Shown one piece after another: positions 1,899-56,673 of a stretch of 64,000 nucleotides of DNA; the first letter of the stretch is position 1; each line of letters opens with the position of its first letter. The stretch is from a virus, in IMG/VR virus record IMGVR_UViG_3300021197_001752, positions 1-64,000 of that record; one strand, given 5' to 3'. The notes beneath the pieces were generated by a model. It was not told the origin of the DNA and made no database searches. It saw nothing but the letters and a program-made list of their open reading frames with translations. Both the position numbers and the translations under genes were made by a program.

Positions 1899-2165
1899 CT
1901 AGTTGGTCATTTTCCGTGTCAACGGATTATAGGCTTTCACAGGACCACGGCGACCTTGGGCCCACTTGTCTAAAATTGGCTGGATAAGTATTTCTGTTGA
2001 GAATTTTTTGGGCAGCTTGTCTCTGCCTAATTCGTTAAACATCTGCTTTAGGTGGTTTTGAATAATTATTCTCGCTTGGGCGATCTCAGCACCCGTGACG
2101 CCAGATCGCTCGCTCATAAGCTCTTCTTTAATAATTTCTCGTAGTTCAGATTCGGTGAATTTCAT
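1899..2165 (-). CDS. Small protein with class B leader (88 aa)
   Basis: Unrecognised protein of 88 residues. The N terminus MKFTESELREIIKE, followed by ELMSE, matches the class B leader seen on the genes starting at 9907, 10296, 10562 and 11331, including the I-K-E end that fits a T4-type prohead protease site. The remainder is a mixed-charge, probably helical domain (residues 20-65) ending in a basic tail (KWAQGRRGPVKAYNPLTRK). It follows the primase gene by 9 bases and precedes the SbcDC promoter region. Function unknown; a head-packaged protein is inferred from the leader only. Confidence 0.75.
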   Translation of the reverse strand: MKFTESELREIIKEELMSERSGVTGAEIAQARIIIQNHLKQMFNELGRDKLPKKFSTEILIQPILDKWAQGRRGPVKAYNPLTRKMTN

Positions 2166-4886: not shown

Positions 4887-5591
4887 TTACATAAATGCAC
4901 TAGGCAAAATATCAATATTATAATATTTGCCCAATTTTACAAGAGCGCCAATTGCAATTGCACCGCCAGGGGGTATAAAGAGTGCTAACAAAATTGCGCC
5001 CACTCCAATGTCTCGTAGTTGTCTTTTTAGGAATGACTTTTCTTCCTCGGATAACGCTGTGCCTTTGGCTGCTTTTAATATAAGTTTACCCGCTTCGCCA
5101 GATTCTTTTATTTCCTGCCCGACTTTTGCCAAGCTAGATTTAATAGATTTGATTGCTGATGTAGATTTATCTTTCAGCCAATCTCTCAGCCCCTCATCAA
5201 GAAGCTCCTCGTTGAGGTCAGCCATCTTTTCTTCTTTGATGGCTGCTCGTCCAACTGTAACAACACTTGTTCTACCTCTCTTGTCGGTTACTTCTACCTT
5301 ATAAGACTCACCATCAAATGATAGGACTTTGCCTTTGTTGGCGGGAAATAATCCACGAGGAAGTTTTACTATTTTTCCTACTAGACTTTTATCTTCGGTA
5401 AGATGCTGGGCTGGGCGTCCTTGCTTTATCCAGTCTTCAATAACAAATATTTTTTGGTCTTCCGACAAATTCCAGAAAACCTCCTGCGAATCTTCGCTGA
5501 GGCGGGAGGCATACTGCTTATAAATCTTCTCGTTTACTTTGTGGACTTTTCTAAAATCCCTCCAGTTCTCCATTATAAGCTTATGACTCAT
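4887..5591 (-). CDS. Protein with LETM1-like C-terminal membrane segment (234 aa)
   Basis: Begins MSHKLIMENWRDFRKVHKVNE; the part from Met7 (base 5573) resembles the class A leader in a degenerate form. Residues about 70-115 form a KOW-like module (VGKIVKLPRGLFPANKGKV). The last 45 residues run from SEEEKSFLKRQLRDIG through a hydrophobic segment (AILLALFIPPGGAIAI) to ILPSAF. That arrangement recalls the LETM1-type tail, where a helix, a Pro-Gly-Gly hydrophobic segment and an LPS(A/T)F end occur together. If correct the protein associates with a membrane. Which start is used is open: 5591 overlaps the upstream gene by 11 bases, while 5573 has no clear ribosome-binding site. Confidence 0.65.
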   Translation of the reverse strand: MSHKLIMENWRDFRKVHKVNEKIYKQYASRLSEDSQEVFWNLSEDQKIFVIEDWIKQGRPAQHLTEDKSLVGKIVKLPRGLFPANKGKVLSFDGESYKVEVTDKRGRTSVVTVGRAAIKEEKMADLNEELLDEGLRDWLKDKSTSAIKSIKSSLAKVGQEIKESGEAGKLILKAAKGTALSEEEKSFLKRQLRDIGVGAILLALFIPPGGAIAIGALVKLGKYYNIDILPSAFM

Positions 5592-5829
5592 CTTTGTTCC
5601 CAGCTTCTAAAGTCTTTTTACTTTTCTTGCTATCTGGTAGGCTCTTTTCAATTCTAAATTTGAGCAGAGATTGACCGTTGATTGTTGGCTGCCCTAATGC
5701 ATCTTTTCCAATACTTTTTACGATCACTCGCTTGTTTTTGAATTTACCACCCAAGAGCACATCGCCAACTTTAATGTCAAGCTTGATCTCGCTTAAATAC
5801 TTCCGCCACTCTGTTAGTAGTTTTTTCAT
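5581..5829 (-). CDS. Class A leader protein, small KNKRV-type domain (82 aa)
   Basis: Starts MKKLLTEWRKYLSE, a class A leader ending L-S-E. The rest (LDIKVGDVLLGG, then KFKNKRVIVKSIGKDALGQ, then PTINGQSLLKFRIEK) is a compact beta-rich domain. I recall similar sequences as a recurrent small phage protein, function unknown. A charged Ser/Lys tail follows. The gene abuts the preceding one (5830) and overlaps the next by 11 bases. Its first 24 coding bases are identical to those of the genes starting at 6243 and 6911. Confidence 0.75.
   Translation of the reverse strand: MKKLLTEWRKYLSEIKLDIKVGDVLLGGKFKNKRVIVKSIGKDALGQPTINGQSLLKFRIEKSLPDSKKSKKTLEAGNKDES
5806..5829 (-). repeat. 24-base perfect repeat encoding the leader start (copy 1 of 3)
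   Basis: Bases 5806-5829, 6220-6243 and 6888-6911 are identical over 24 bases. Each is the start of a gene and encodes MKKLLTEW. The bodies of the three genes are unrelated, so the leader-coding DNA is conserved separately from what follows. Similar but imperfect copies begin the genes at 7302, 7832 and 8452. Confidence 0.85.
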
Positions 5830-6243
5830 TTATTTATCTGTTTCCGCAGCTTTGGTAATGTTCATAACAAATCCTGTTTTGCCGAAGAGTTTTTCATATT
5901 CATTCTTGTCATTTTTCCCGAAGGCTCCTACTTCACCTTCCTCTCCCGTTCGTGGGGATCTGACTTCGTAGGTCTTTCTCTCGCCAGAGCCGTCAACGAC
6001 CACCAACTTGGTTGGCTGACCTTTGGCTATCCCTTTGTCTGTTAGTGCTCCGATAACACGATAAACAGGCTTGCGGTTGCCGATAGTAAAAGTATCGCCT
6101 CTGTCTAAGCCCTCCAGATCATCAAGATGAGGTGAGCGTTGGATCTCAGGTCCTCGCTCATCATCAGAAAACCCGCCGAACTCAGCCGCCCAGTCGTTTT
6201 CTTCCTTCATAAACTTACGCCACTCTGTTAGTAGTTTTTTCAT
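5830..6243 (-). CDS. Class A leader protein, beta-rich domain (137 aa)
   Basis: Leader MKKLLTEWRKFMKE ends M-K-E. After an acidic linker (about 15-45) comes a probable beta-barrel: LDRGDTFTIGNRKPVYRVIG, then KLVVVDGSGERKTYEVRSP. The ending contains GKTGFVMNITK. No family recognised. The start overlaps the upstream stop as ATGA (6243/6240), implying translational coupling with the 223-residue gene before it. Confidence 0.7.
   Translation of the reverse strand: MKKLLTEWRKFMKEENDWAAEFGGFSDDERGPEIQRSPHLDDLEGLDRGDTFTIGNRKPVYRVIGALTDKGIAKGQPTKLVVVDGSGERKTYEVRSPRTGEEGEVGAFGKNDKNEYEKLFGKTGFVMNITKAAETDK
6220..6243 (-). repeat. 24-base leader-coding repeat (copy 2 of 3)
   Basis: Identical to 5806-5829 and 6888-6911; covers the first eight codons of the gene starting at 6243. 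Confidence 0.85.
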
Positions 6244-6911
6244 ATTACAAATAACCTTTTGGCTTTTTGTAGTGCTTCGATAGTTTCAGTAGAGCCTTTA
6301 GAATAAATTTTAGACAGCGGGCTTTTAGGCCAGTCAGTACTTCTCCTGCCAATTGGCACAGTCTGATCGCAATCGTCTTCTTTTTTATCTGGAGTTAGTT
6401 GTGGGAAATAATCAAGTGTTTTTGAGGAGATTGAGTCTAGACCATGAGCAACGTCCATTTGGCTTGGTTTTACATCTGAGCGTTTCTCATATTTGTCCCA
6501 TACGGCTAGGGCGTAATCAGATACAGAAAATCTGTCTGGCATAAGACCGCCGCCGTTTTGTGAAGCCCATTCTAGAATCACCTCATATAATAATGGTCCC
6601 CAGCCTCTTTCCGCTCTCGCACCTACAACAACATGTCCATTAAAGCATGGTCCATTTTCATCTTCTATCGCCCTGTCAACCTGCAAACCGCCATAGGGTA
6701 TGCCTGTCTTGCTTTGTTTTAACTCTGAAAACTGCTTATTCTCATAATCCTCAATGCGAACATATCTTACCTGGGCACCATCGCCGCCGCCCTCGACGTC
6801 AAGCACAATACCAATATCGTCAAGTGCTAGCAGAGCGTTCAACTGCTTCTGGATGCGAGGATCAAGACCCTCCTTCAAAAACTCTCTCCACTCTGTTAGT
6901 AGTTTTTTCAT
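6240..6911 (-). CDS. Class A leader protein with GNAT-like core (paralogue of the gene at 7829-8452), 223 aa
   Basis: Leader MKKLLTEWREFLKE, then a domain with HVVVGARAERGWGPLLYEVI, followed by NGGGLMPDR, SVSDYALAVWDKY and KRSDV. The RGWGPLLYE segment is placed like the acetyl-CoA loop (R/Q-x-x-G-x-G/A) of GNAT acetyltransferases, but other GNAT motifs are not obvious, so an acetyltransferase role is only possible. The same core with the same order occurs in the gene at 7829-8452, including DDC-Q and the terminal YSKGST. The two are diverged tandem paralogues sharing one leader type. Confidence 0.75.
   Translation of the reverse strand: MKKLLTEWREFLKEGLDPRIQKQLNALLALDDIGIVLDVEGGGDGAQVRYVRIEDYENKQFSELKQSKTGIPYGGLQVDRAIEDENGPCFNGHVVVGARAERGWGPLLYEVILEWASQNGGGLMPDRFSVSDYALAVWDKYEKRSDVKPSQMDVAHGLDSISSKTLDYFPQLTPDKKEDDCDQTVPIGRRSTDWPKSPLSKIYSKGSTETIEALQKAKRLFVI
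6888..6911 (-). repeat. 24-base leader-coding repeat (copy 3 of 3)
   Basis: Identical to 5806-5829 and 6220-6243; first eight codons of the gene starting at 6911. Confidence 0.85.
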
Positions 6912-6912
6912 T

Positions 6913-7302
6913 TTATTCTTCTTTACCCTTTACAACACCAAGAGGACCAGCTTTAGCCTTTGGTCCTATTAGCTTTTGATCTCCAGATATCTGATCACCA
7001 TTTATAAGAAGGTTGATGGTGTTTATACCCATTAGTGGTTGGTGTACTATTATGTAGACACCCTCTGGATGGTCTGCTATAAACTCTCCCACCCTTGGTT
7101 CTTTATAATTTCTGTCTCTGTCCATAATATATTTTTGTATCAGAGCAGGACTGCCCTCAGCCTCATATCCTAGAGCATTAAGATCATCCATTAATCCATA
7201 AAAATCTCTACCGTTTTTGTTTAGTGCGTTAACCATTTCTTCTTCGTCAAACTCTTGTGACTCATTTAGAAATTGTCGCCATTCGTTTAATAGTTTTTTC
7301 AT
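6913..7302 (-). CDS. Class A leader protein, unknown (129 aa)
   Basis: Leader MKKLLNEWRQFLNE ends L-N-E, followed by an acidic stretch. The body has a helical part (EEMVNALNKNGRDFYGLMDDLNALG) and a beta-rich end (GVYIIVHQPLMGINTINLLING). No family recognised. Its start overlaps the stop of the ADP-ribosyltransferase-like gene (ATGA at 7302/7299), and the next gene starts 2 bases after its stop. Confidence 0.7.
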   Translation of the reverse strand: MKKLLNEWRQFLNESQEFDEEEMVNALNKNGRDFYGLMDDLNALGYEAEGSPALIQKYIMDRDRNYKEPRVGEFIADHPEGVYIIVHQPLMGINTINLLINGDQISGDQKLIGPKAKAGPLGVVKGKEE

Positions 7303-7832
7303 AATCCTAAATCCTCATATGGTATTCCAAGCTCGTCAGCTTTAGCTCTTGCCTTGATCTTCCAAGCCTCTTTGGTTGAAGGAATATCACCGACGCCTTT
7401 TATATTTAGTTTGCTAACATCAAAGACGACTATTTCGTGACCCGAGTGGGCACCATCAAAGCCTTTCTCTGTAAAGTATTTTGTTAATGCTGCTGATCTT
7501 TCAGGGTCATTTGCTTTTGGCGGGAAGCTTACACCCGCTTGTTTCAAGTCGCTTATGTGATCATTGAAGTTGGCTACGTTCTCTAGGCTGTGTTCTACTT
7601 CTAGGACAACTGGGTCTCCACCAAATCTCTTGGCATTTTCTTCTGCATAGCTCATGGCCATGTCACTATCGATCGATAAGTAAATACCCCTACCTAAGTT
7701 ACCACTATCTCTCCTGCCTGCCTTACTGTCATCAAATTTATCAAACACCTCAGTGGTGCCATGATATAAAGTATCTGGTAGGAACTTTGATTCCTTCAGA
7801 TACTTCCGCCACTCTGTTAGCAGTTGTTTCAT
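7299..7832 (-). CDS. Class A leader + ADP-ribosyltransferase-like domain (177 aa)
   Basis: The leader MKQLLTEWRKYLKE ends L-K-E. The remainder carries the three landmarks of an H-Y-E type ADP-ribosyltransferase: LYHGT at 22-26, GRGIYLS at 47-53 followed by an A-x-x-YAEE helix, and HEIVVFD at 132-138 with Glu133 as the catalytic acid candidate. Such enzymes transfer ADP-ribose from NAD to proteins. T4 packages its ADP-ribosyltransferase Alt in the head and injects it to modify host RNA polymerase; the leader suggests the same logic here (inference). Start and stop overlap neighbours as ATGA. The target is unknown. Confidence 0.75.
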   Translation of the reverse strand: MKQLLTEWRKYLKESKFLPDTLYHGTTEVFDKFDDSKAGRRDSGNLGRGIYLSIDSDMAMSYAEENAKRFGGDPVVLEVEHSLENVANFNDHISDLKQAGVSFPPKANDPERSAALTKYFTEKGFDGAHSGHEIVVFDVSKLNIKGVGDIPSTKEAWKIKARAKADELGIPYEDLGL

Positions 7833-8452
7833 TCTTCTAATTTACCTGCCGCACGCAAAGCGTCTAATGTTGGAGTTGAGCCCTTGCTGTATAAATAAGC
7901 TGTGGGTTGGGATGACCAGCCGTACTCCTTATCAAGGTTATTCTTTCTTGCCCACCTAATTGAAGATGATTGCTCGCAGTCATCAGATTCATCGTCAGGG
8001 GTAACCTTCTCAAAATCACGATTGGTAATGTCTAGTTGTTTAGCCTCTACATCTTTTCGTTTCCGCATATAATAATCCCATACTTGATAGGCATCTCTAG
8101 AAACGCTGCCTCGGTCAGCAGTAAGCCCGCCGCCAAGTTCGCTAGTCAGTTCTAGCATTATGTCATATAAAAGTGGACCCCAGCCTTTTCTGGCAGATGC
8201 CTGTACGACCTGATAGCCGTCTAGACAAGGCTTCGATAGTTTTACTGAAGTCATGGACCCCCAAGGGGCATCGTCAGGTGGAGGAGGATCACCAGCGTTT
8301 GCATGGTAGAGTGTTTGACCCTCGTGCTTATAAGCCAATTGAATATCTTGTCCAATGCTAACAAGTATGCTTGATCCTTCAGGGAGATCTTTTATAGTCT
8401 TCATCCCTTCGGACAATAAATACTTTCGCCACTCTGTTAGTATTTCTTTCAT
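7829..8452 (-). CDS. Class A leader protein with GNAT-like core, paralogue of the gene at 6240-6911 (207 aa)
   Basis: The ATG at 8452 is chosen over a longer frame start at 8509: it has AGGA just upstream, overlaps the previous stop as ATGA, and yields the leader MKEILTEWRKYLLSE. The body shares with the 6240-6911 protein the series ARKGWGPLLYDIM, LGGGLTADRGSVS, YQVWDYYMRKRKDV, DDCEQ and the terminal YSKGST-T-AL. A Pro-rich insert (DPPPPDDAPWG) lies before the core. Acetyltransferase activity is possible but unproven. Confidence 0.75.
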   Translation of the reverse strand: MKEILTEWRKYLLSEGMKTIKDLPEGSSILVSIGQDIQLAYKHEGQTLYHANAGDPPPPDDAPWGSMTSVKLSKPCLDGYQVVQASARKGWGPLLYDIMLELTSELGGGLTADRGSVSRDAYQVWDYYMRKRKDVEAKQLDITNRDFEKVTPDDESDDCEQSSSIRWARKNNLDKEYGWSSQPTAYLYSKGSTPTLDALRAAGKLEE

Positions 8453-8982
8453 AGTCCTATAAATATCACATCGCCTGATGATGTGTAATCCCTTGCAAGT
8501 GATTTCCACACTCTCCTGGCATCAGCCGAAGTTCCTGAGCCTATGGTGCAGTGATGTGCCCCTACAAATACACCGCCATAAGACTTGGCGTATTCTGCTG
8601 CTTGAGCGATAAATGCTTTGTATATTTCTTTGCCGTACCCTTTGCCTCGTTGTTCTGGGTTAGTGATCCAGGCATTTTCTATATCGTAAAATCTTGGTCT
8701 GAACTTAGCTGGCACTTCTTTCATTATATAATTGCCGTCTTCGTCCTGTGCCATATCTTTGGTGGTATTGTTGGCTTCAAACTTTTCTTTAGCTTTTATA
8801 AATTCTGGTGTTTCCATAAGAGCGTCAACATCTGACTGACATTCTTTAAATCTTAGGTGTTGCATCCCTTGGGCATAACCAATACCTTGAAGGTCAATAC
8901 GAAAGTATTCCGAGTCACCCTTGAGCTTGAACTTTGAGCCCTCATTTATAAACTGTCGCCACTGTTCCATAAGAAGCTTCAT
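8449..8982 (-). CDS. Class A leader + GNAT acetyltransferase-like domain (177 aa)
   Basis: Leader MKLLMEQWRQFINE ends I-N-E. The core has the GNAT acetyl-CoA loop QRGKGYGKE at 111-119 preceded by the strand ENAWITNPE, followed by a helix (IYKAFIAQAAEYAKSYGG) and a strand with VFVGAHHC. These fit motif A and part of motif B of GNAT N-acetyltransferases, which transfer acetyl groups to amines or proteins. The substrate cannot be inferred. The stop overlaps the next start as ATGA (8452/8449). Confidence 0.75.
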   Translation of the reverse strand: MKLLMEQWRQFINEGSKFKLKGDSEYFRIDLQGIGYAQGMQHLRFKECQSDVDALMETPEFIKAKEKFEANNTTKDMAQDEDGNYIMKEVPAKFRPRFYDIENAWITNPEQRGKGYGKEIYKAFIAQAAEYAKSYGGVFVGAHHCTIGSGTSADARRVWKSLARDYTSSGDVIFIGL

Positions 8983-8983
8983 A

Positions 8984-9151
8984 TTACTTTAGCTCCACTC
9001 TTTTTGATGCAAAATCTACCAATATAAATGGAAATATTGCATGAATAAGTAAGCCACCCGCACATAACATTAGCTTGGCAGAATACTTGCCAGCATGTAG
9101 TAGGTGCTGGAGGTATGTCATGTCTTGTTCTTTCAGGTGCTTTGCTAACAT
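8984..9151 (-). CDS. Short membrane protein, DUF6356-like (55 aa)
   Basis: A 55-codon gene fills the gap between its neighbours. ATG at 9151 has AGAGGA 7 bases upstream; TAA at 8986-8984 is followed by the next ATG at 8982. The product has a charged N-terminal helix (MLAKHLKEQDMTYLQHLLHAG) and one hydrophobic segment, MLCAGGLLIHAIFPFILVDF, then ASKR. The LIHAIFPF signature is what I associate with the small DUF6356 membrane family (recalled, not searched). It lacks the class A/B leader. Confidence 0.65.
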   Translation of the reverse strand: MLAKHLKEQDMTYLQHLLHAGKYSAKLMLCAGGLLIHAIFPFILVDFASKRVELK

Positions 9152-9152
9152 A

Positions 9153-9593
9153 TCATTCCTCTGGGAATTTATTTCTGTTCTGCCAGTCGTGGGACACCTT
9201 ATCCTGATCTATTGGACCGCCCTTAGCCCATGTGCGGCACGAGCGGGCTGAGTGACACTTAAAATGATGCATCCAGCAGTAGCCCAGTTCGCCATCATCA
9301 TCTGATGTTTCCCCTGGCATACAGTCTTTCATTCTTGGTGAGATGTCAAATGCAACACAATTGCCGCAGTTAGATTTTTTAGCTGCCTCTTCAGTTGTGT
9401 TCCAATACTCGGCAATATCTTTCCAGTAATCACCTGGCTCATCTACATTGAGCGGTCCATACTGAATGTGTTCTGCTTTGATGGAAGCATCCCGATTTTT
9501 AGTATTAAGTTCTAAGTCTTGCGTTGCGGGAGGACAAATATACTCCTTGGCAGTATCAACAAACTTTCTCCATTTTACGATTATCTTTTTCAT
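9153..9593 (-). CDS. Class A-like leader + cysteine-rich protein (146 aa)
   Basis: Start at 9593 is chosen (TAATG overlap with the previous stop, AAGGA upstream), giving MKKIIVKWRKFVDTAKE, a leader variant. The C-terminal half is Cys-rich: NCGNCVAF, then KDCMPGE, then LGYCWMHHFKCHSARSC-TW-KGGPI. The spaced Cys and His residues suggest a metal or Fe-S site. No catalytic motif is visible. It follows the gene for a basic protein at 9593-9907 in the same overlapping run. Confidence 0.7.
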   Translation of the reverse strand: MKKIIVKWRKFVDTAKEYICPPATQDLELNTKNRDASIKAEHIQYGPLNVDEPGDYWKDIAEYWNTTEEAAKKSNCGNCVAFDISPRMKDCMPGETSDDDGELGYCWMHHFKCHSARSCRTWAKGGPIDQDKVSHDWQNRNKFPEE

Positions 9594-9907
9594 TACCAGT
9601 CCTTGCAGGCCCAATATCTTGCTTTAAGTTTAGAACCTGGGCTTTTACAATTCATGCGGACCCTAAAGTTCTTTCTGTTTTTTGGCTTGTCTTTGTTATT
9701 TCTCATCTTAGCATCACCGAATTTAACTATTCTTTCTTTACCATCTTCGCAAGCCTTGACAACTTTTTGTTTCTTGCCGTGACCAGTCTCGCCTTTTCTA
9801 ATATATCGCTTTTTGTTGCATTTCATTTTATCTTTATCAAATTCAGCAATCACTGAGGCGATTTCTTCTTTTATAATATTTCGTATTTCGTCTTGAGATA
9901 AATTCAT
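9593..9907 (-). CDS. Class B leader + small basic protein (104 aa)
   Basis: Leader MNLSQDEIRNIIKE, ending I-K-E. The body is Lys-rich with the series KVVKACEDGKERIVKFGDAKM, then FRVRMNCKSPGSKLKARYWACKDW. The FGD..M...FR.R..C...P..K..ARYW.C..W pattern is one I recall from small proteins in phages and giant viruses, of unknown function. Start overlaps the upstream stop as ATGA (9907/9904). One of three consecutive basic, leader-bearing proteins. Confidence 0.75.
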   Translation of the reverse strand: MNLSQDEIRNIIKEEIASVIAEFDKDKMKCNKKRYIRKGETGHGKKQKVVKACEDGKERIVKFGDAKMRNNKDKPKNRKNFRVRMNCKSPGSKLKARYWACKDW

Positions 9908-10296
9908 CCTTTTTTCCCTGCCTTTGATTTTTTACCGTAGTTACCTCGTTTGCTACATGCCCCTGGTGTGGGTCTGCACTTTGGATACTTGGAACGCTTT
10001 TCGTCGCTGCCACGACCGCAAGCTTTACATTTCTTTCTGCCTGTCTTTTTGTCTTTACGGCAGGTGTTACAATCTACCCAGCCGCTCTTACTTCCTTTTT
10101 CGCCCTTGCGTCCAAACCAATCACCAAGATTCGATTCTGATCCTGGCTTGCTGGTGAGTTTACGTTTCTTACGCTTTACTTTTCTTTTCTTGCGTTTCTT
10201 CTTTTTTTTCTCGTCAAGATTCTCAGACTGTTCCGCTAGCAGTTGCTGTAACTGCTCCTGAATCATCTGTTTTAAATCAGAACGAGATAACTTCAT
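9904..10296 (-). CDS. Class B leader + highly basic Cys-containing protein (130 aa)
   Basis: Leader MKLSRSDLKQMIQE, followed by QLQQLLAEQSE. Residues about 30-50 are almost pure Lys/Arg, a strong nucleic-acid-binding signal. The C-terminal half (GWVDCNTCRKDKKTGRKKC, then KACGR, KYPKCRPTPGACSKRG) recalls a small phage family with a W-DC/CGR/YP-CRPT-AC pattern (possibly DUF6321; recalled, not searched). The six Cys residues could bind zinc. Overlaps both neighbours by 4 bases. Confidence 0.75.
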   Translation of the reverse strand: MKLSRSDLKQMIQEQLQQLLAEQSENLDEKKKKKRKKRKVKRKKRKLTSKPGSESNLGDWFGRKGEKGSKSGWVDCNTCRKDKKTGRKKCKACGRGSDEKRSKYPKCRPTPGACSKRGNYGKKSKAGKKG

Positions 10297-10562
10297 TTAT
10301 CTTTACCGCCTTCGCCCCAGTTTTTAGCACCAACTTTGCGGCACTTAACAAGTGCACCTGATGCATAAGCTGATGGCCAAACTTTATACCTTGACTTGAC
10401 CTTGTGATAACAAGCATCTCGCTTCGCCTTACGCTTAACACGTCTCTTTTTCTTTTTTGTTTTGCGGCGGCTAGAAGCTTTTCTCTTAGCTTTACGCTTT
10501 TTCTTTTCGTCTAAGATCGCTTCTCGAATAAGTTCTCTGAGGCTGTCATGTGTAAACTTCAT
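10293..10562 (-). CDS. Class B leader + basic protein with YHKVKSRYKVWPSAYASGALVKC motif (89 aa)
   Basis: Leader MKFTHDSLRELIRE. Residues 19-48 are a Lys/Arg run (KKKRKAKRKASSRRKTKKKK and continuing). The C terminus ACYHKVKSRYKVWPSAYASG, then ALVKCRKVGAKNW, is a motif I recall from many phage proteins (DUF5872-type, recalled only), function unknown. Like its two downstream neighbours it would be well suited to bind packaged DNA. Confidence 0.75.
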   Translation of the reverse strand: MKFTHDSLRELIREAILDEKKKRKAKRKASSRRKTKKKKRRVKRKAKRDACYHKVKSRYKVWPSAYASGALVKCRKVGAKNWGEGGKDK

Positions 10563-10577
10563 ATTCCTGACTCCTCA

Positions 10578-11033
10578 TTATTGTCTTGGGTTTACAACGT
10601 AGGTTCTCTGCTGACCTCCTCCAAAACTATCTGTTTTGAAGTCGTCTTTTCTCATCACTGTGATGACCTTTAGTGTATCAGGACCTTTTTGCATGTTAAG
10701 TACACCGATCACATTAAGATCAGGAACCGATTTGGCTTTGCTGACCCCTTTTATGTGAAACGCCTCATCGTTAGCTAATTCACCGTTTGCGTAATCATTT
10801 ATAATTTTACCTAATGCCATCTCTACTGTTCCGACGATCGCCTCATTAGAAATCTTCTTATCATGGCGAAATTGTCTTTCCTTGCTATGTTTGGTAGCCT
10901 GTAAATCCAGATCATCCAGATCTATAACAATTTTCAAACCACCGACTTTAGCAACATAAGCGCCGCCGCTGCCCAGGTCAGACATTTTTTCTTCGTTGAT
11001 AAAATTCTTCCAAACTGCAAATACGTTATGCAT
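10578..11033 (-). CDS. Leader-like N terminus + unknown domain (151 aa)
   Basis: Starts MHNVFAVWKNFINE, a divergent class A leader ending I-N-E. The rest has the series LKIVIDLDDLDLQATKHSKER, QFRHDKKISNEAI, then VIGVLNMQKGPDTLKVITVMRKDDF and RTYVV. The H-S-x-E-R-Q...I-S motif followed by strands loosely resembles small RelE/DUF4258-type folds, but I would not assign a function. Start overlaps the preceding gene by 8 bases with no clear ribosome-binding site. Confidence 0.65.
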   Translation of the reverse strand: MHNVFAVWKNFINEEKMSDLGSGGAYVAKVGGLKIVIDLDDLDLQATKHSKERQFRHDKKISNEAIVGTVEMALGKIINDYANGELANDEAFHIKGVSKAKSVPDLNVIGVLNMQKGPDTLKVITVMRKDDFKTDSFGGGQQRTYVVNPRQ

Positions 11034-11331
11034 TGGTGGTAACAGCCGCTCTAAGTTTCGTAGGCTCTAGATCTAGCCCGATCATATTCAGCAAAGTATC
11101 TGCAACCATTGCTTGTCTGGCAACGTTTTGTTTTTGCATGTATGCTTTAAGCTTCTCTAGAACTTTCACATCGCCGCCGTCGCCCATTATTTGCTTAAGG
11201 GCAACCTTAACCTGATTAGGTACATCAGCATCCGCTCCAGGCGCTGCCTCAGCTTCTGGCTCTTCTTGGATGTTGGTGGTGTTGATCTCTTCTTTGATCA
11301 AATCTCTGATCATGTCTTTTGTGAGCTTCAT
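11026..11331 (-). CDS. Class B leader protein, acidic linker and helical domain (101 aa)
   Basis: ATG at 11331 has a strong AAGGAG upstream and gives the leader MKLTKDMIRDLIKEE. An acidic Glu/Ala/Pro linker (NIQEEPEAEAAPGADAD) is followed by a helical domain (VKVALKQIMGDGGDVKVLEK, then a Met/Leu-rich helix). No family recognised. First of the leader-bearing genes after the RuvC gene; a small hairpin (11349-11361) sits just before its ribosome-binding site. Confidence 0.7.
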   Translation of the reverse strand: MKLTKDMIRDLIKEEINTTNIQEEPEAEAAPGADADVPNQVKVALKQIMGDGGDVKVLEKLKAYMQKQNVARQAMVADTLLNMIGLDLEPTKLRAAVTTNA

Positions 11332-47856: not shown

Positions 47857-48846
47857 TTAAGTATTGTTTATTATATCGCAAATATATTGAGACGCTTTAC
47901 CATCGCCATAAGGACATACCTCTTTGGATAGGTCTACTTTAGTAGCCCAAGTGTCTACTAGATTTTCTAAACATTTTGGTTCTTTGCAGAGAACCGAAAA
48001 AGTATCGAGGCCTTCCACTCTTTCTGTAAAGTCACGGCAAACAATACATGGTTTCTTGAGGAAAGCAGCTTCTTCCTGTACACCTCCACTATCAGTTATT
48101 ATAAATGCACAAGTTGAAAGTTGCTCTATGAATTCTGCATGTCCTAGCGGATCTATAACATTTACGTCAGTTAGGATACTAGAATGCTTTTTAACTTCTG
48201 GGTTGGGGTGGATTGGTAAAATAAACTCAAGGTCTTTATATTTTTGAGCTAAATTGTTTACTACCTTAAACCATTCCTGTATCTCATCTAACTTTTCACG
48301 ACGGTGTAATGTAACGACAACTTTATTAGATTTATGAATAGTCACGTCGGACAGGTTATCTAGAACAGTATTACCCACTATATGAATATTAGTACGACCT
48401 TCTTTTTTAAGATTACTGGCTGATATATCTGTTGGGCACAAATGGATTTCTGCTAGTGCAGAAATAGCACATCTATTAAACTCTTCTGGGTATGGACTGT
48501 ACTTGTCAAATGTTCTTAGTCCTGCTTCTAGGTGTGCTACTGGTATCTTTCTATGGAAAGCTGCCAATGCTGTTGCAAATGCAGAGGTAGTATCACCTTG
48601 CACCATTACACATGTTATATCGACAAATATTTCTTCTTTGTTTAATATTGATTGTATAATCGAATCTAATCGGTTACCGTTATCTAAAATTTCTAATACA
48701 TGATCTGGTTTATTTGCCTTCTTTAATAGGTCAGTGTGTTGTCCTGTGAAGAAGGATTTGAACGGCATGTTCCGCTTTTTCATTTCGTTTATCACAGGAA
48801 GTACTTTTATGTACTCGGGTCTTGTTCCGTAAGTTATAAGAAGCAT
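47857..48846 (-). CDS. wecB: UDP-N-acetylglucosamine 2-epimerase (WecB-like)
   Basis: 329 residues, slightly short for the family (about 370). Diagnostic motifs: TYGTRPEYIK at the start, VQGDTTSAFA, HLEAGLRTF, PEEFNRC, VTLHRREK, TDSGGVQEEA and YGDGKAS at the end. It interconverts UDP-GlcNAc and UDP-ManNAc (or a related hydrolysing epimerisation) for surface polysaccharide. Last gene of the glycan cassette, 2 bases from the nucleotidyltransferase gene. Confidence 0.9.
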   Translation of the reverse strand: MLLITYGTRPEYIKVLPVINEMKKRNMPFKSFFTGQHTDLLKKANKPDHVLEILDNGNRLDSIIQSILNKEEIFVDITCVMVQGDTTSAFATALAAFHRKIPVAHLEAGLRTFDKYSPYPEEFNRCAISALAEIHLCPTDISASNLKKEGRTNIHIVGNTVLDNLSDVTIHKSNKVVVTLHRREKLDEIQEWFKVVNNLAQKYKDLEFILPIHPNPEVKKHSSILTDVNVIDPLGHAEFIEQLSTCAFIITDSGGVQEEAAFLKKPCIVCRDFTERVEGLDTFSVLCKEPKCLENLVDTWATKVDLSKEVCPYGDGKASQYICDIINNT

Positions 48847-48848
48847 GT

Positions 48849-49250
48849 TTACTCGGTAAGGTATTTTACAACAAGGTCATGAATTTTCTCGTCAACATTT
48901 AGTTTCCAAGAATCGTCGCCTTCAGTAATTTTAGTTCTAATATCAGTCGCAGAAATAAATCCGATGTCTTTAGGTGGTACATGTTCTATAATGCCATACC
49001 CGACGCCACGTCCATAATTCACAGAATCTATGTCTGGTATAACCATCACCACTACATCATGATCTTCATATGCCTTTTCTAACATCTCTACTGTCTGTTC
49101 TGTAGTAAAGGGGTTTTTGTCGTCAGGTGGAATATCTCTGACACATATCAAAACAGGTAAGCCCTCATCAAGCTTTTGTGACATAAGCCATTTATGACCA
49201 TTATGAAACGGTTGCCACCTACCAATAAACATTGCTCTTCTGGTACTCAT
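48849..49250 (-). CDS. Cytidylyltransferase-like nucleotidyltransferase (133 aa)
   Basis: HxGH-type nucleotidyltransferase: FIGRWQPFHNGHKWL (HNGH at 16-19) and ISATDIR around 98-105 in place of ISST-x-R. Size and order match small NadM/TagD-like adenylyl- or cytidylyltransferases. It overlaps the APS kinase gene by 4 bases. An ATP-sulfurylase-like supply of APS would fit the neighbourhood, but the sequence does not show sulfurylase motifs, so the substrate is open. Confidence 0.75.
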   Translation of the reverse strand: MSTRRAMFIGRWQPFHNGHKWLMSQKLDEGLPVLICVRDIPPDDKNPFTTEQTVEMLEKAYEDHDVVVMVIPDIDSVNYGRGVGYGIIEHVPPKDIGFISATDIRTKITEGDDSWKLNVDEKIHDLVVKYLTE

Positions 49251-50194
49251 CGGTCTTCTCCTTCTAATAGATCTCTAACTGTGTCTGTCCAGTTTCTAAA
49301 TTTATATGCTCGATCATCAATATACGTGTCGGCTGGAATCTTGAAATTGGATACCTCATCAAAGTATTTTTTTAGACCTCTTTCCTCTAACCAGGCTTCG
49401 ATTACAGATGATGGTCGGGACGATAAGATTACTAACCTCTTACCAGCGTCTTTGAGAACCTCAAATGCAGCCTCTGCGCCGTCCATTGGGTCATCGTATG
49501 CGTTCATCAAACCCTTGAAACCTTGACTATATTTGTGTATCACACCATCAAAATCAATTGCAATAGTTCTTTTTTTGTCTAGCACATTAACCTCGCTTAT
49601 AGTGGAGAAATAACCACTCTCTTCTAGGTGCTCAACGATGTGATTGGCGCACTCTTCTACACTAAACTCTGCCGTATTCACAATGATTTCTGGACTTCTG
49701 GGCTTTTCATAAGGAGCACTAATACCAGTAAAATTAGGTATTTCTCCGCTTCTTGCTTTTTTATATAACCCCTTAGGATCTCTAGCCTCACACGTTTCTA
49801 GAGGAGCTTTTACGTGTATCTCTATAAAGTCTTTTCCAATTATTTCTCTTGCAAATTTTCTGCTCTTACGGTATGGTGAAATAAATGCTGTACACACTAT
49901 TGTGCCAGATTGTCTCAATAAATTAGCTACCTCTGAAATCCTTCGGATGTTCTCTTTTCTATCATCTGGTGAGAATCCAAGGTCGTTGTTGAGGCCAAGC
50001 CTAATATTATCCCCGTCAAGTGTGTGGGTCTGATACCCTTTTCGGAATAATAATAGTTCTACTGCATTGGCTAATGTAGATTTACCTGATCCTGATAAAC
50101 CAGTAAACCATAATACTGCTGGCTTATGTTTATTCTTCTGTATCTTCTCTTCAGTCGATACTGTTGTATTATGAAAGTGTAAGTTGTTTGTCAT
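49247..50194 (-). CDS. Adenylylsulfate kinase (CysC-like) fused to a HAD domain
   Basis: Residues 1-195 are a CysC-type APS kinase: Walker A TGLSGSGKST (31-40), LDGDNIRLGLN, DLGFSPDDRKENIRRISEVA, TAFISPYRKSR and GLYKKARSGEIPNFTG. This makes PAPS, the sulfate donor, from APS and ATP. Residues about 207-315 form a compact HAD fold: IAIDFDGVIHK, ILSSRP and YIDDRA. The HAD part may remove the 3'-phosphate of PAP or process another product; this is inference. Cotranscribed with the DUF2061 protein and near a sulfotransferase gene. Confidence 0.88.
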   Translation of the reverse strand: MTNNLHFHNTTVSTEEKIQKNKHKPAVLWFTGLSGSGKSTLANAVELLLFRKGYQTHTLDGDNIRLGLNNDLGFSPDDRKENIRRISEVANLLRQSGTIVCTAFISPYRKSRKFAREIIGKDFIEIHVKAPLETCEARDPKGLYKKARSGEIPNFTGISAPYEKPRSPEIIVNTAEFSVEECANHIVEHLEESGYFSTISEVNVLDKKRTIAIDFDGVIHKYSQGFKGLMNAYDDPMDGAEAAFEVLKDAGKRLVILSSRPSSVIEAWLEERGLKKYFDEVSNFKIPADTYIDDRAYKFRNWTDTVRDLLEGEDR

Positions 50195-50397
50195 TTTTTT
50201 ACCCCAAACTTAGAGAAATTATACCACACTCTTTCATGGGCATAATATAGAAATATTTTTGTTATTAACTCAACAGCACCGATCTTCACGCCAATCATTG
50301 GGTCGCCAGATATTAGCCAACCCAACAACATTGTGTCTATTGTCCCAACAGCACGCCAGCTTATCGCTTTTGCCAAGTGTCTTTTCTTTGCTACCAT
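50191..50397 (-). CDS. DUF2061 membrane protein (68 aa)
   Basis: MVAKKRHLAKAISWRAVGTI, DTMLLGWLISG, GAVELITKIFLYYAHERVW: the K-x-x-SWR start and YYxHERxW end are the hallmarks of DUF2061. In bacteria this family commonly accompanies cysC or other sulfate-assimilation genes, and here it directly precedes the APS kinase gene. Two short hydrophobic segments suggest membrane insertion. Confidence 0.85.
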   Translation of the reverse strand: MVAKKRHLAKAISWRAVGTIDTMLLGWLISGDPMIGVKIGAVELITKIFLYYAHERVWYNFSKFGVKK

Positions 50398-51344
50398 ACG
50401 AATGTTTTCTTACAATGCTTTACAATATGTATTATTTCTTCATCGAAATCAAACTTTGGCTCCCAGCCCAGTTTCCTCAACTTGCTATCGTCTACAGAAT
50501 ATCGAATATCTTGACCCTCCCTCTCATAAGAAAAGTCTAGATATTTATCATAATCAATGTTTTCTTCCTCTAGGTAGCAGTCTATCACCTTCTTGACCGT
50601 ATCAACGTTTTTTTGTTCAAACCCGCCAGATATATTGAAAATTTCATTTTTTGCGCCAGACTCCATAATAGTAATAATAGCGTTTGCAGTGTCTGCTGCA
50701 TGGAGCCAATTTCTAGTCGGTTCACCCTTGTTATGAAGTCTTATTTTTTTCCCTCTTTGTAATAGTTTTACAGACAAGGGAATTAACTTTTCTGGGTACT
50801 GAAATATACCATAGTTATTGGTAGGTCGGACAATCACATATTCTGTGCCATAAGTCCTATTCCATGATTTGATCAAATGATCTGCGGCTGCTTTGGTTGC
50901 TGAATATGGATTACTAGGGTTCAGAGAACTATCTTCTGTGAATGACCCGCTTTCAAGATCGCCGTATACCTCATCAGTGCTAAAGTGTAGTAAGATTGGT
51001 CTTTCGCAAACATTACTTGGTTTGTTCTGGATAATCTTTAGTAGATTTTGAACACCACTAATGTTTGTGTTGATAAAGTCTGTGTTATCAATTATACTGT
51101 TCCCAACATGCGATTCGGCAGCTAGATTTATTATGTAATCACAATCAGGGATAGTCTCAAGATCACAAATATCTTTTTGTAAAAAAGTAAAACCTGGTAA
51201 GTCCTTGAATGTTTGCACGGCTTCCATATTAGCCGCATATGTTAGTTTGTCTATACCCAGAACCAAATAGCCTCGTTGGAGTAATTCACTTGTAACATGT
51301 GAGCCAATTAACCCCATGCACCCTGTAACTGCCACTATCTTCAT
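50391..51344 (-). CDS. dTDP-glucose 4,6-dehydratase-like NAD-dependent epimerase/dehydratase (RmlB-like)
   Basis: ATG at 51344 overlaps the previous stop as ATGA with GGGG upstream; a TTG two codons earlier is the alternative. Extended SDR motifs: Rossmann GCMGLIGSHV (usually GxxGFIG), AAESHV, STDEVYGD, YSATKAAADHL (catalytic Tyr/Lys) and RPTNNYG. These match RmlB, which makes dTDP-4-keto-6-deoxyglucose. The DegT-like and GNAT genes nearby suggest an acylated amino-deoxysugar. No RmlA is visible in the window. Confidence 0.88.
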   Translation of the reverse strand: MKIVAVTGCMGLIGSHVTSELLQRGYLVLGIDKLTYAANMEAVQTFKDLPGFTFLQKDICDLETIPDCDYIINLAAESHVGNSIIDNTDFINTNISGVQNLLKIIQNKPSNVCERPILLHFSTDEVYGDLESGSFTEDSSLNPSNPYSATKAAADHLIKSWNRTYGTEYVIVRPTNNYGIFQYPEKLIPLSVKLLQRGKKIRLHNKGEPTRNWLHAADTANAIITIMESGAKNEIFNISGGFEQKNVDTVKKVIDCYLEEENIDYDKYLDFSYEREGQDIRYSVDDSKLRKLGWEPKFDFDEEIIHIVKHCKKTFVW

Positions 51345-51775
51345 TTGCAATACCCCACGTAGTCACTGCACACACCATAAGCGTTTGTTGATAATACCAT
51401 GTCAGTCTCCTTTTTTGTATGACATACTATAACAGATCTTGGGGTAAGTTGTTTACCTGGATATGTCCAAATGAAACGATTACTTGTTATAGTGTAGTGA
51501 TCAGACTCGTGCCAAAAGCAATGGGCACCTATGTTTAATAGATGTTCTAGTGCCTCGATGTTTTTAGCATGGCACCATAATTTTGGGCGTAATAAGAAAT
51601 CTGTGGTTATAAGATGTGTTGGCTTATCATGACCTAGGTATATTTTATTATCAATAGACCACACGTCTATTTCCACGTCAAATCCTTGATTGATTACTTC
51701 AGCAATTTTTGCAGGGCTGTTCTCGGTTTCTTCTTCTGGTCCAAAAAGATTGCCCCTGTGAGATACTAATAACAT
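51341..51775 (-). CDS. Short glycerophosphodiester phosphodiesterase-like protein (144 aa)
   Basis: Met at 51775 is chosen because the frame extends upstream into the preceding gene and GGAG lies before it. MLLVSHRGNLFGPEEETENS, GFDVEIDVWSID and YLGHDKPTHLI carry the GDPD catalytic pattern (HRG, E-x-D, GHD). At about 145 residues it is much shorter than typical GDPD enzymes (about 250). It could act on a glycerophosphate-decorated glycan; inference. Confidence 0.7.
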   Translation of the reverse strand: MLLVSHRGNLFGPEEETENSPAKIAEVINQGFDVEIDVWSIDNKIYLGHDKPTHLITTDFLLRPKLWCHAKNIEALEHLLNIGAHCFWHESDHYTITSNRFIWTYPGKQLTPRSVIVCHTKKETDMVLSTNAYGVCSDYVGYCK

Positions 51776-51776
51776 A

Positions 51777-52652
51777 TTATTTGTAAAACTCCGCTCTAGT
51801 GTATGCCCAGTTGCACATACCACCATGGCTTACCACATGTCCCATACTATTGAAGTTATGCCAGCCATTGCTTCGACCCCAGTATATCTCTTCAAAATCA
51901 TACTTGAGGTCTAATATTTGTTGTTTATAGTTTTTCCAGTTTGGCTGCATCTGGTTATAATTCCACCTAAGATCACAAAATCCTATCTCGCCAATATCTC
52001 TAAATGAACAATACTCTTTTAGTAAATCTGGCCAGTTCTTATCTTCGTAGAGTAAAGCTTGTGGGTTGTAAGGCATAGGTGGGATTTTACCAGAAAAGTA
52101 TTTTACAAATGATATACCTGTGTGTCTTAAACCGTCAGCATGAAATGGTTCATTGTTTTTATCCCATATAGAGCCCAATAGATCAATCTCTCCATACATA
52201 AAGCAATCGCCAAATTTATACAGTTCTTTACCAGTCTGCTGTGTCAAGAGAATCATTTTATCTTCTGATTTTATTATGTCGTGGCAATACGATATAATAT
52301 CTTGCTTTGCTATTACAGAATCACCCCTGGTTTTTAGACAATAATCAAAACCTTTTTCTTTTGCGTGTTCTATTCCTAGTGATACAGATTTGTATTGGGC
52401 TGGCATATTGATTACAGTACCGCCGCTATCAACTGGGTGTAAGTCTTCCCAGATAACTTTATCGCAAATATCCTTTGTAGAGTTATAGGGCTCGTGTCCA
52501 TGTCCAACTAAAATTATGTACGCATCAGGATTATTGTTTCTTAAGCTTTGAATATTTGTATCTACTATTTCCTGTTTAGCTAAAAACCCAAGGCTACCTT
52601 GGGGGTCATAATCTGGAATGTGTATCTGCGATACAATACAATTATTTTTCAT
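51777..52652 (-). CDS. WavE-like glycan synthesis protein (291 aa)
   Basis: ATG at 52652 is preferred to the upstream TTG. The series DAYIILVGHGHE, FDYCLKTRGDSVI (D-x-D-like acidic site following K-x-R) and CFMYGEIDLLGSIW resembles the WavE/GT family of LPS synthesis proteins and the second such gene at 53275. Likely a glycosyltransferase. The stop is just before the GDPD-like start. Confidence 0.65.
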   Translation of the reverse strand: MKNNCIVSQIHIPDYDPQGSLGFLAKQEIVDTNIQSLRNNNPDAYIILVGHGHEPYNSTKDICDKVIWEDLHPVDSGGTVINMPAQYKSVSLGIEHAKEKGFDYCLKTRGDSVIAKQDIISYCHDIIKSEDKMILLTQQTGKELYKFGDCFMYGEIDLLGSIWDKNNEPFHADGLRHTGISFVKYFSGKIPPMPYNPQALLYEDKNWPDLLKEYCSFRDIGEIGFCDLRWNYNQMQPNWKNYKQQILDLKYDFEEIYWGRSNGWHNFNSMGHVVSHGGMCNWAYTRAEFYK

Positions 52653-53271
52653 ACTGATACCCAAACAACTCTATGTCTTTTGCGTATAGTTTAGCAACTT
52701 CAGCGGCACTTTCTTCATCATAATGTTCTGTGTAATGCCCATGGTTAGTAGGTCTATGCTGTGTAGAAAATAAGTGTTGATAAAACTTAAACCCCAATTT
52801 GTTCATAAGGACTTTCATATCCGCTTGGATATTTTCTACCCTTAGGATCATATCGACGGCCCTATCCTCTGTATGAGTATAAACATGCTGAGGGAGAAAA
52901 TGAACATCATTTATCCACTTGCCTTCACCGATCCTCATAACAAAATCTTTAAAATCCTTATACTCAGACAATAACGGTTCATCATATCGTATCAAGCCAG
53001 AGTACTCATGTTTTCTATTTTGTGTAAAGTCCATATAGCCTGATAACAACCTAGACCAAGGATTCCTAACAGCAGCAAATGAATAATACCTGTGGTAGTC
53101 AGGCTTTATATTTAGGATCTGTTGGTAACTCATATGGTGTATATGTGGCTCTGGGTCGGACCTATCGTTACCCTTAAGTTCATATAAATCCTTGAGTAGC
53201 ACATGAATTGAAGACCCTGCTGCTTTTGGGTTGTGTACGAATATTATTTTCTTTTCATCATCTATAAACAT
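52642..53271 (-). CDS. PAPS-dependent sulfotransferase (209 aa)
   Basis: The two PAPS-binding elements are clear: FVHNPKAAGSS at 11-21 (5'-phosphosulfate loop, usually HxPKtaGtS) and FAAVRNPWSRLLSGY at 65-79 (3'-phosphate motif with RNP and Ser). The order, size and HFLPQHVYT further on match the Sulfotransfer_2 family, which sulfates glycans. Together with the APS kinase fusion 3 kb downstream it forms a plausible sulfate-transfer route. Overlaps the WavE-like gene by about 11 bases. Confidence 0.88.
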   Translation of the reverse strand: MFIDDEKKIIFVHNPKAAGSSIHVLLKDLYELKGNDRSDPEPHIHHMSYQQILNIKPDYHRYYSFAAVRNPWSRLLSGYMDFTQNRKHEYSGLIRYDEPLLSEYKDFKDFVMRIGEGKWINDVHFLPQHVYTHTEDRAVDMILRVENIQADMKVLMNKLGFKFYQHLFSTQHRPTNHGHYTEHYDEESAAEVAKLYAKDIELFGYQYEK

Positions 53272-53274
53272 ATT

Positions 53275-54054
53275 TTATCTATCATAATAACTTTGGACAT
53301 ATGGGTTCATAAAAGAAAATGTAGCTCCACACTGCGCCCAGCGAGCAATGTATTCTCCCAGTCTATTAATATCAAAAACTTTGAAATATTTATCAAATGT
53401 AGAATGTATATTTTCTTCTACGCCGTGCCAGGTATCCCTAGGTATTCCTGAGCCTATTAGGAAGATGTGCGCCAAAGAAACTTCAGCACTATTAAGCGTT
53501 TGGTCTATATCCTCCTCTTTCTCTAAACCTGGTAACACTATATGATCCCTGTAATATGCTAATGCTATCTTTAGACCATTGTGAATACTTTCTCTTTTGC
53601 AAGCATATATGTGGTCTCCTATGTGATAAGGTGAGCCCATATGAGCCCTCTTATAAAAAATATTACCACAAATAAATTTATGGCTTGATTTTCTAAGTTC
53701 TTTTTTGATAATCGAGAAATCTTCGTAATATTCATCCGAGCGCATTTTTATGATATAATCTGCCGATGATTTCTCTAGACCATTATATGTTGACAAACAA
53801 GCCCAGTAATATGTGGAACAACCAACGATTCCCTTGTACGGTTCACCAGTTGGATCAGCAGGTCGCTGAGGTAGCTCTTCTGATGTTATCACCACATTGT
53901 TATAATCTGATAGCTTCTCTATCCAAGTGCCTGAATCTTCATGGTCCCATGTAGAAATTATAACTTTGTTAAATTGTTTACACAACACATCCATCTTCGA
54001 TAAGAAGACATTGCTACCATCAATGGGTCCTTGAATGATTAGATCAATATTCAT
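53275..54054 (-). CDS. WavE-like LPS synthesis protein (259 aa)
   Basis: Begins MNIDLIIQGPIDGSNV, with the WavE-type IIQGPI start, then YIIKMRSDEYY (acidic metal-binding site) and AHIFLIGSGIPRD. Probable glycosyltransferase for surface-glycan assembly. AAGG in the preceding stop region serves as ribosome-binding site. Sits directly downstream of the split transketolase genes. Confidence 0.75.
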   Translation of the reverse strand: MNIDLIIQGPIDGSNVFLSKMDVLCKQFNKVIISTWDHEDSGTWIEKLSDYNNVVITSEELPQRPADPTGEPYKGIVGCSTYYWACLSTYNGLEKSSADYIIKMRSDEYYEDFSIIKKELRKSSHKFICGNIFYKRAHMGSPYHIGDHIYACKRESIHNGLKIALAYYRDHIVLPGLEKEEDIDQTLNSAEVSLAHIFLIGSGIPRDTWHGVEENIHSTFDKYFKVFDINRLGEYIARWAQCGATFSFMNPYVQSYYDR

Positions 54055-54055
54055 T

Positions 54056-54538
54056 TTACCTTGACAAATTCACATAAGTTGGTTTTCCATTATACATGAT
54101 ACCTTTAAATAAACGTTTCATATCTTCAGGGTCTTCAGGCCAGTGCTTTTCAATATTCTTGAATCCGCTAAGGTGTTCCTTGTCATCAGTCGCCCAATGT
54201 GACCAGCCTAACCAAAGATAATCTTTATCCCTACCCGCACCAATTAATTTGACTGGGATCTTCTCATAATCAACGTAGTTTCTAATAAATTCAAATGGTC
54301 GATACAATGTGAATGGCGTCATTGAATAACATACTACAAGCTTACCCTCTTGGGCTAAGCCAATACTCATCCCCATCATTAATTGTTCTGCTGCGCCTGG
54401 GTTGATAACTCTGTCTGGGAACTCTTCACGAATCTCATCAAAATGTCCATAACCTAAATCACCAACGACAAAAACAATATTTTCGTTTTCTTTCATTTCT
54501 TCATGTAATAAACTGACAAATGTTTTTCTAACGCTCAT
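54056..54538 (-). CDS. Transketolase, C-terminal (pyrimidine-binding) subunit
   Basis: 160 residues: NIVFVVGDLGYG, FPDRVINPGAAEQLMMGMSIGL (catalytic Glu in NxGxAEQ), FTLYRPFEFIRNYV. This is the pyrimidine-binding half of a two-gene transketolase. Overlaps the N-terminal subunit gene by 11 bases. With the upstream partner it would transfer two-carbon ketol units between sugar phosphates, requiring thiamine diphosphate. Confidence 0.88.
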   Translation of the reverse strand: MSVRKTFVSLLHEEMKENENIVFVVGDLGYGHFDEIREEFPDRVINPGAAEQLMMGMSIGLAQEGKLVVCYSMTPFTLYRPFEFIRNYVDYEKIPVKLIGAGRDKDYLWLGWSHWATDDKEHLSGFKNIEKHWPEDPEDMKRLFKGIMYNGKPTYVNLSR

Positions 54539-56335: not shown

Positions 56336-56337
56336 CT

Positions 56338-56673
56338 TTACCCCTTATAGGCTCTAATATTTTTTATTACACCATCTTGACTATATGTGATGATGTCTGC
56401 TACTATTATTTCTTGCTTGTCTAGAGTTATCACAATTTCCGCTGTGGCGGTCAAGAGAAGCTTATCAACAGTGCACCGTGTTATATCAACCTTGATATCA
56501 TCTACACTATCAAATAAACCCCTATTTGCTTCTAGGACTTTTTCCCTACCATGGCATTCAACATCCCAATCCATAAGTGACACAGTGCTACTATAAAGCT
56601 CTTTTAGTGCGTCCAAATCCTTACGTTCAAATGCAGAAAAGTATTTCCAAGTTAGTTGATAGAGATCCATCAT
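56338..56673 (-). CDS. NTF2/SnoaL-like small protein (111 aa)
   Basis: Pattern YFSAFERKDLDALKELYSST, VSLMDWDVECHGREKVLEAN and a beta-rich end with ADIITYSQDGVIKNIRAYKG: an NTF2-like alpha+beta barrel used by small isomerases and binding proteins. Located between the kinase and the nucleotidyltransferase-RpiB genes. Likely participates in the sugar pathway; the reaction is unknown. Confidence 0.7.
   Translation of the reverse strand: MMDLYQLTWKYFSAFERKDLDALKELYSSTVSLMDWDVECHGREKVLEANRGLFDSVDDIKVDITRCTVDKLLLTATAEIVITLDKQEIIVADIITYSQDGVIKNIRAYKG

Follow-up and report, generated by a model that had tools for sequence, protein, structure and literature searches.

The internal proteins of phage T4 form a highly diverse set in which the leader alone is conserved (PMC3012670). 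In T4 genetics, residues 4 and 7 of the ten-residue IPIII leader proved to govern import and residues 8 and 10 to govern processing, and the injected protein Alt is an ADP-ribosyltransferase (ART) (PMC9026906). IPI inhibits a restriction enzyme of the host, and infection of a particular strain of E. coli depends on IPIII (PMC3012670, PMC9391042). Head ejection and inner-body proteins of SPN3US and phiKZ undergo cleavage by a prohead protease and are ejected into host cells (PMC5694885, PMC10052503, PMC13282480); the available parts of these accounts describe no array of genes with a short shared leader, which sets the two systems apart by description and not by sequence. Here we analyze a window of 64,000 bases (bases 1-64,000 of the 146,705-base record IMGVR_UViG_3300021197_001752 of a marine phage) in which seven consecutive minus-strand genes (5581-8982) begin with the leader MKKLLTEWRK(F/Y)LxE or a close variant of 14-15 residues (W type). 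These leaders are most likely capsid-targeting sequences of a T4-type phage, carried by cargo that is imported into the head.

The locus resembles the T4 proteins IPI, IPII and IPIII (PMC9026906, PMC3012670) in its short N-terminal leader on unrelated cargo, ending in the motif PhixE, in the T4-type head with a gp21 protease found in its relatives, and in the basic proteins among the cargo. The T4 sequences that the initial annotation quoted hold up: ipII and ipIII both begin MKTYQEFIAE↓A and gp23 carries FLTE↓A (the arrow marks the border after Glu), and the T4 sequence also gives MAKINELLRE↓S for the gp24 leader. Counted back from the predicted cut, the W leader shares with MKTYQEFIAE an aromatic or hydrophobic residue at P7 and P4, an aliphatic residue at P3 and Glu at P1, a likeness too short for a test of homology; aligned on the Glu, residues 4, 7, 8 and 10 of IPIII correspond to W8, F/Y11, L12 and E14. 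The leader differs from those of IPII and IPIII in sequence and in length (14-15 residues versus 10), and the system differs from the T4 internal proteins in having many more tagged genes per phage, set in arrays, two leader types in one phage, and leader types that are exchanged on one cargo family; it is also known from sequence alone. As with Alt, there is a predicted ADP-ribosyltransferase among the leader-bearing proteins, and other proteins with W leaders give weaker ART matches, but the predicted enzyme is much smaller than Alt and belongs to a different ART family, ART-PolyVal.

The seven-gene array, described in the initial annotation as coupled genes with a shared MKKLLTEWR-type start, was recovered both in the open reading frame list and by gene calling, with 4-base stop/start overlaps at four of its six junctions and a gap of 0-1 base at the remaining two. 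A second leader, the I type (MK(I/L/F)(T/S)xxxLRxIIKE), aligns with the W type without gaps and places its Glu at the same residue, 14. Residue statistics for the W type were drawn from 27 non-redundant proteins that were retrieved by their first ten residues alone. Of these, 25 have Glu at position 14, and the other two have PhixE one residue off (13 or 15); position 11 is Phe or Tyr in 26 and position 12 is Leu, Ile, Met or Val in all 27. Conservation falls to background from residue 15 onward, and Glu makes up 8% of the bodies. The proposal that the leader end follows the prohead protease rule is borne out by this near-invariant Glu, by Leu/Ile at P3 and Phe/Tyr at P4, and by the sharp stop. 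The W pattern matched none of 80,000 shuffled N-termini made from other genes of a close relative of the window's phage (G001; 174,625 bases, baseplate protein 95% identical). A DNA pattern fixing residues 1-10 only found 23 stretches on 19 viral contigs, and a longer W pattern had no match in 84,980 cellular genomes.

The leader is kept as a protein, by selection at the protein level. The ratio of nonsynonymous to synonymous differences (pN/pS) was 0.27 in codons 2-14 of W genes versus 0.92 in codons 16-28 just downstream, and 0.23 versus 0.90 in the same codons of I genes. Synonymous sites are strongly diverged throughout. Recent duplication, considered as the origin of the shared leader, and a DNA signal are consequently not the explanation. 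It is extremely unlikely that the common 5' sequence is a recombination cassette or a translation-start signal whose encoded peptide is irrelevant. Exact W copies are fairly uniform as DNA over the first eight codons (T6 is ACA in 34 of 34), which would ease cassette exchange, but pS in the leader (0.69) is nearly that downstream (0.75) while pN is 0.19 versus 0.69, and leaders of different amino acid sequence replace one another on one body.

This replacement constitutes the strongest evidence for capsid targeting, and comparison of homologous proteins shows the leader to be an exchangeable module ending at the Glu. Proteins of one cargo family can bear the W leader in one lineage of phages and a different leader elsewhere (MKITKxQLRxIIKE, or a third, Y type such as MKHLRQYIRQILLE that was seen on homologous bodies in other phages), with the swap at the Glu. 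The GWGPLLY family has W leaders in the window (MKEILTEWRKYLLSE↓GMKTIKDLP) and in L126 (MKQLLTEWRKFVLTE↓GMKTAAKLP) and Y leaders in L308 (MKHLRNYIRKILLTE↓AMKTPAMLP) and L313 (MKQLRQYIRQVLLTE↓GMMTTDDLP). The KFKNKR family has a W leader in the window (MKKLLTEWRKYLSE↓IKLDIKVGD), a Y leader in L267 (MKHLREYIRQILLE↓SISLDVDVGD), an I leader in L169 (MKITRRQLRKIISE↓ALELDIEEGD) and none in L186. One shared body follows FINE↓ in the window (10578-11033), YIKE↓ in L135 and HLME↓ in L148. Internal module borders also fall at PhixE in the product of 4887-5573 and its relatives; the DKSLVGK module stands after an internal HLTE↓ in that protein but directly after the leader MKLLMEQWRKYLNE↓ in L140. W and Y leaders were not found together in the same loci, and each coexists with the I type. 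Leader type therefore tracks phage lineage and not cargo, which points to a phage-encoded partner.

The candidate partners belong to the T4-type head. The close relative has the same leader arrays together with terminase, portal, S77 protease (E=2e-28), scaffold and Gp23 capsid genes. In two panels of records, S77 was present in 8 of 13 and 15 of 18, and all viral records with Gp23 that were also searched for S77 have it (8 and 15, respectively); the three leader-bearing records without S77 are also without Gp23. The capsid propeptides of the close relative and eight further relatives end in LL(K/R)E, or in LISE or IVSE in two cultured phages, mostly before Ala or Ser and at the position of the T4 FLTE↓A, ahead of the HK97 fold. 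The same place is taken by LL(K/R)E or VLRE in nine more capsid proteins of phages with leaders, protease prodomains mostly contain LLTE or LLNE, and the gene adjoining the protease in several relatives starts with MKKSQLKELIKE or a similar sequence, which resembles the I leader. A suggestive match, found after the fact, is that in the close relative (L/I/M)(L/I/M)x(E/K)W...(L/I)xE is confined to W leaders and the capsid propeptide (LLTKWEKTGLLE). The initial annotation had called for a search for a gp21-like protease and for cleavage sites in the capsid protein; both were found, in the close relative and also in further phages with leaders. The window's own record (146.7 kb versus 174.6 kb in the relative) gave no match in searches for S77 protease and Gp23 capsid genes; it is a fragment that lacks the head module. 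A ClpP-like serine protease gene at 114,987-115,739 of the record (L003 18987-19739) matches 'head maturation protease' PHROGs; it was considered as the leader protease and set aside, since the close relative has an S77 protease besides its ClpP-like gene and the latter is not needed in that role.

We regard it as unlikely that the leader instead serves as a docking tag for the tail, the baseplate, the replication compartment or a modified RNA polymerase, or binds the head and stays uncut. The arrays do not adjoin head genes, one leader (9153-9593) is without Glu, and the amphipathic helix predicted for residues 2-14 by a low-confidence model could bind many partners. However, a docking tag leaves unexplained both why conservation and exchange stop at the Glu of a prohead protease motif in all three leader types (W, Y and I) and why the capsid protein has matching sites.

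The cargo is diverse. Bodies grouped by single linkage (E<1e-4) formed 32 W clusters and 247 I clusters in our sample. By profile, the product of 7299-7832 is a predicted ART-PolyVal ADP-ribosyltransferase (PF18760, 33.9 bits against a curated cut-off of 31.2); its structure model has a predicted local distance difference test score (pLDDT) of 59, with no match in the PDB better than E=0.2. The weaker ART matches on W-leader proteins are in L128 and L133, a GNAT match is in L129, and a second leader cluster of the record (118.5-121.9 kb) encodes an AAA_33/zeta-toxin-like kinase. Most other scanned bodies match no family, and fold searches with two cargo models of low confidence were uninformative. 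The statement that the bodies differ completely was too strong: most are unrelated, but 6240-6911 and 7829-8452 are homologous, with 41% identity across the alignment, leader included. In the close relative no gene was called at the position matching 5830-6243, a comparison indicating that cargo turns over between phages. A reading of the leaders as those of ribosomally synthesized and post-translationally modified peptides was set aside with no dedicated test, the bodies being proteins of about 70-480 residues, some of which match enzyme families.

Several observations weigh against head import. The sources searched hold no virion proteomics or N-terminal data for phages with these leaders. 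The match to protease and capsid sites rests on relatives, because the window's record is a fragment without those genes, and the co-occurrence with S77 is not independent evidence, since leader-bearing phages are a T4-type lineage anyway. PhixE is a weak motif, occurring about 0.4 times per 22 residues in bodies. I leaders are often followed, some eight residues further along, by another LLxE (residues 17-30 contain PhixE at 0.80 per protein versus 0.18 in bodies), which makes the exact cut uncertain and may place the final one at about residue 22. The gene at 9153-9593 retains its leader yet lacks the Glu. Finally, the T4-like late promoter TATAAATA is not enriched in the window (7 occurrences versus 6.2 expected) and never lies within 80 bases upstream of a same-strand gene in the record. 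The lack of a visible late promoter, together with enzyme-like cargo (ART, GNAT, kinase) that also suits early host takeover, would fit ordinary early effectors, produced once infection has begun, with a leader that binds a host partner or membrane and has no role in the virion. We consider this highly unlikely, given that leader type tracks phage lineage, that the leaders end in a protease motif also present in the capsid protein, and that LLx(E/K)W...(L/I)xE is limited in the close relative to W leaders and the capsid propeptide.

Capsid targeting thus draws its basis in sequence from the leader, the Glu border, protein-level selection, exchange, and the matching protease and capsid sites of relatives; from these we infer core binding, cutting, packaging and injection of the cargo. 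Cargo would be synthesized with an N-terminal amphipathic leader, which would bind the prohead core or the inner shell so that the cargo is trapped during head assembly. A gp21-type prohead protease would then cut after (L/I)-x-Glu at the leader end, a site of the same kind as in the major capsid protein and the protease prodomain. The freed cargo would stay with the DNA and presumably be injected at the next infection, to act as host-modifying proteins (ADP-ribosyltransferase, possibly GNAT-like and kinase) or DNA-binding proteins (Lys/Arg-rich).

Table 1. Leader-bearing genes of the window, with leaders written up to the Glu border where one is present.
Coordinates	Strand	Leader	Type and body	Remarks
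8449..8982	-	MKLLMEQWRQFINE	W; 163-residue, weakly GNAT-like	Pfam Acetyltransf_1 E=0.011, under curated cut-off
7829..8452	-	MKEILTEWRKYLLSE	W; GWGPLLY family	True start ATG 8452; homologous bodies elsewhere with Y leader
7299..7832	-	MKQLLTEWRKYLKE	W; predicted ADP-ribosyltransferase (ART-PolyVal)	PF18760 E=6.6e-8, over cut-off
6913..7302	-	MKKLLNEWRQFLNE	W; no known family	Open reading frame list, gene calling, family scan
6240..6911	-	MKKLLTEWREFLKE	W; GWGPLLY family	Paralogue of 7829-8452
5830..6243	-	MKKLLTEWRKFMKE	W; no known family	Homologue in L136
5581..5829	-	MKKLLTEWRKYLSE	W; KFKNKR family	Family elsewhere with Y or I leader, or none
9153..9593	-	MKKIIVKWRKFVDT	Degenerate W; Cys-rich	Glu gone; orthologue in close relative retains Glu (MKKLLTEWRKYINE)
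10578..11033	-	MHNVFAVWKNFINE	Divergent W	Gene calling, leader-exchange comparison
4887..5573	-	MENWRDFRKVHKVNE	Degenerate W	Internal module borders HLTE↓DKSLVGK and AIKE↓EKMADL
11026..11331	-	MKLTKDMIRDLIKE	I
10293..10562	-	MKFTHDSLRELIRE	I; very Lys/Arg-rich
9904..10296	-	MKLSRSDLKQMIQE	I; very Lys/Arg-rich
9593..9907	-	MNLSQDEIRNIIKE	I; basic
1899..2165	-	MKFTESELREIIKE	I	Apart from main array

Eight further genes near the W array carry leaders, three of them divergent or degenerate W forms and five of I type (Table 1). The initial annotation had seen divergent leaders at 9593 and 11033 and possibly at 5573; the one at 11033 is indeed divergent, that at 9593 has no Glu and that at 5573 is degenerate. 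Its scope was too narrow in other respects, as it missed the I type on five genes, several leader families, and the second cluster at 118.5-121.9 kb of the record, which holds both W and I types. Within that cluster, a 308-residue protein (record 119,411-120,337; L004 5411-6337) begins with an I leader and contains two more leader-like stretches, one internal (MKITKQQLQNIIRQELAEE) and one near the C terminus, and in the close relative a separate gene begins at the internal stretch.

Elsewhere in the window, about 20 genes at 47857-63965 have the look of sugar-nucleotide and glycan synthesis, glycosyltransferases included, an extent unusual for a phage of this size. By the look of their sequences, the record also encodes a bacterial DnaE-type DNA polymerase III alpha subunit (L004 7997-11425) and a GroEL-type chaperonin (L003 13423-15006).

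Beyond this phage, arrays of Y and I leaders (L267 2148-7831) lie on contig NHDW01000006.1 (305,838 bases), which is filed under a Methylococcaceae metagenome-assembled genome, holds a Gp23 capsid gene and is probably a misbinned giant phage. Two giant-phage records (L284/L294 and L286/L295) have two adjacent Gp23-type capsid genes each. A tblastn search of cultured phages with the leaders found nothing for the W type; it gave one weak I-type match, from an uncultured giant phage, and three matches to Streptomyces phages that are probably due to chance; and megablast of the region against phage records found nothing. The cultured Flavobacterium phage vB_FspM_immuto (NC_055915; L124, L272) has a related baseplate, portal, S77 protease and Gp23 capsid, and shared N-terminal leaders as well, MENFDLKKFLVENKLTxNSKLLxE (the MENFDLKKFLVEN type) on four genes (gp003, gp076, gp077 and gp092) and MKKSxLxxIIKE on three (gp080, gp094 and gp095), but these leaders differ in sequence and none is of W type. 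The first of them, a fourth leader type (FDLKKFLVENKLT...LLxE), is common in a different phage group, to which immuto belongs; in the form M(E/D/K)(N)NFDLKKFLVENKLTxNSKLLxE it occurs in more than 120 stretches of viral contigs among the matches listed (L315-L394). The literature searched returned papers on T4, SPN3US and jumbo phages, with none of these leader strings and nothing on these leaders. Capsid-targeting sequences on T4 internal proteins are already known. What is new, judging by the sources searched, is the leader families themselves, the exchange of one for another at the predicted cut site, how many a single phage carries and how they are spread among uncultured phages.

A wider reading is plausible, and we put it forward tentatively. 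The W, Y, I and FDLKKFLVEN leaders may be lineage-specific, exchangeable tags for head import that are cut off in uncultured T4-type phages, whose lineages swap cargo and re-tag it at the cut site. The W tag resembles the capsid-propeptide motif LLxKW...LLEG and may bind the same core, some cargo may consist of polyproteins cut at internal (L/I)xE borders, and each virion may deliver a dozen or more effectors. If the head-import reading is right, a tag of 14 residues would identify head-packed, injected phage proteins from their sequence, with about 250 cargo clusters in the present sample, most of those scanned having no assigned family. The presence of the fourth leader in the cultured phage immuto makes the idea testable at once, and the tag makes co-evolution of leader, scaffold and protease testable. 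Injected proteins act ahead of any phage gene expression. The tag would consequently list, for uncultured phages, the proteins that are candidates for first-response anti-defence and host takeover.

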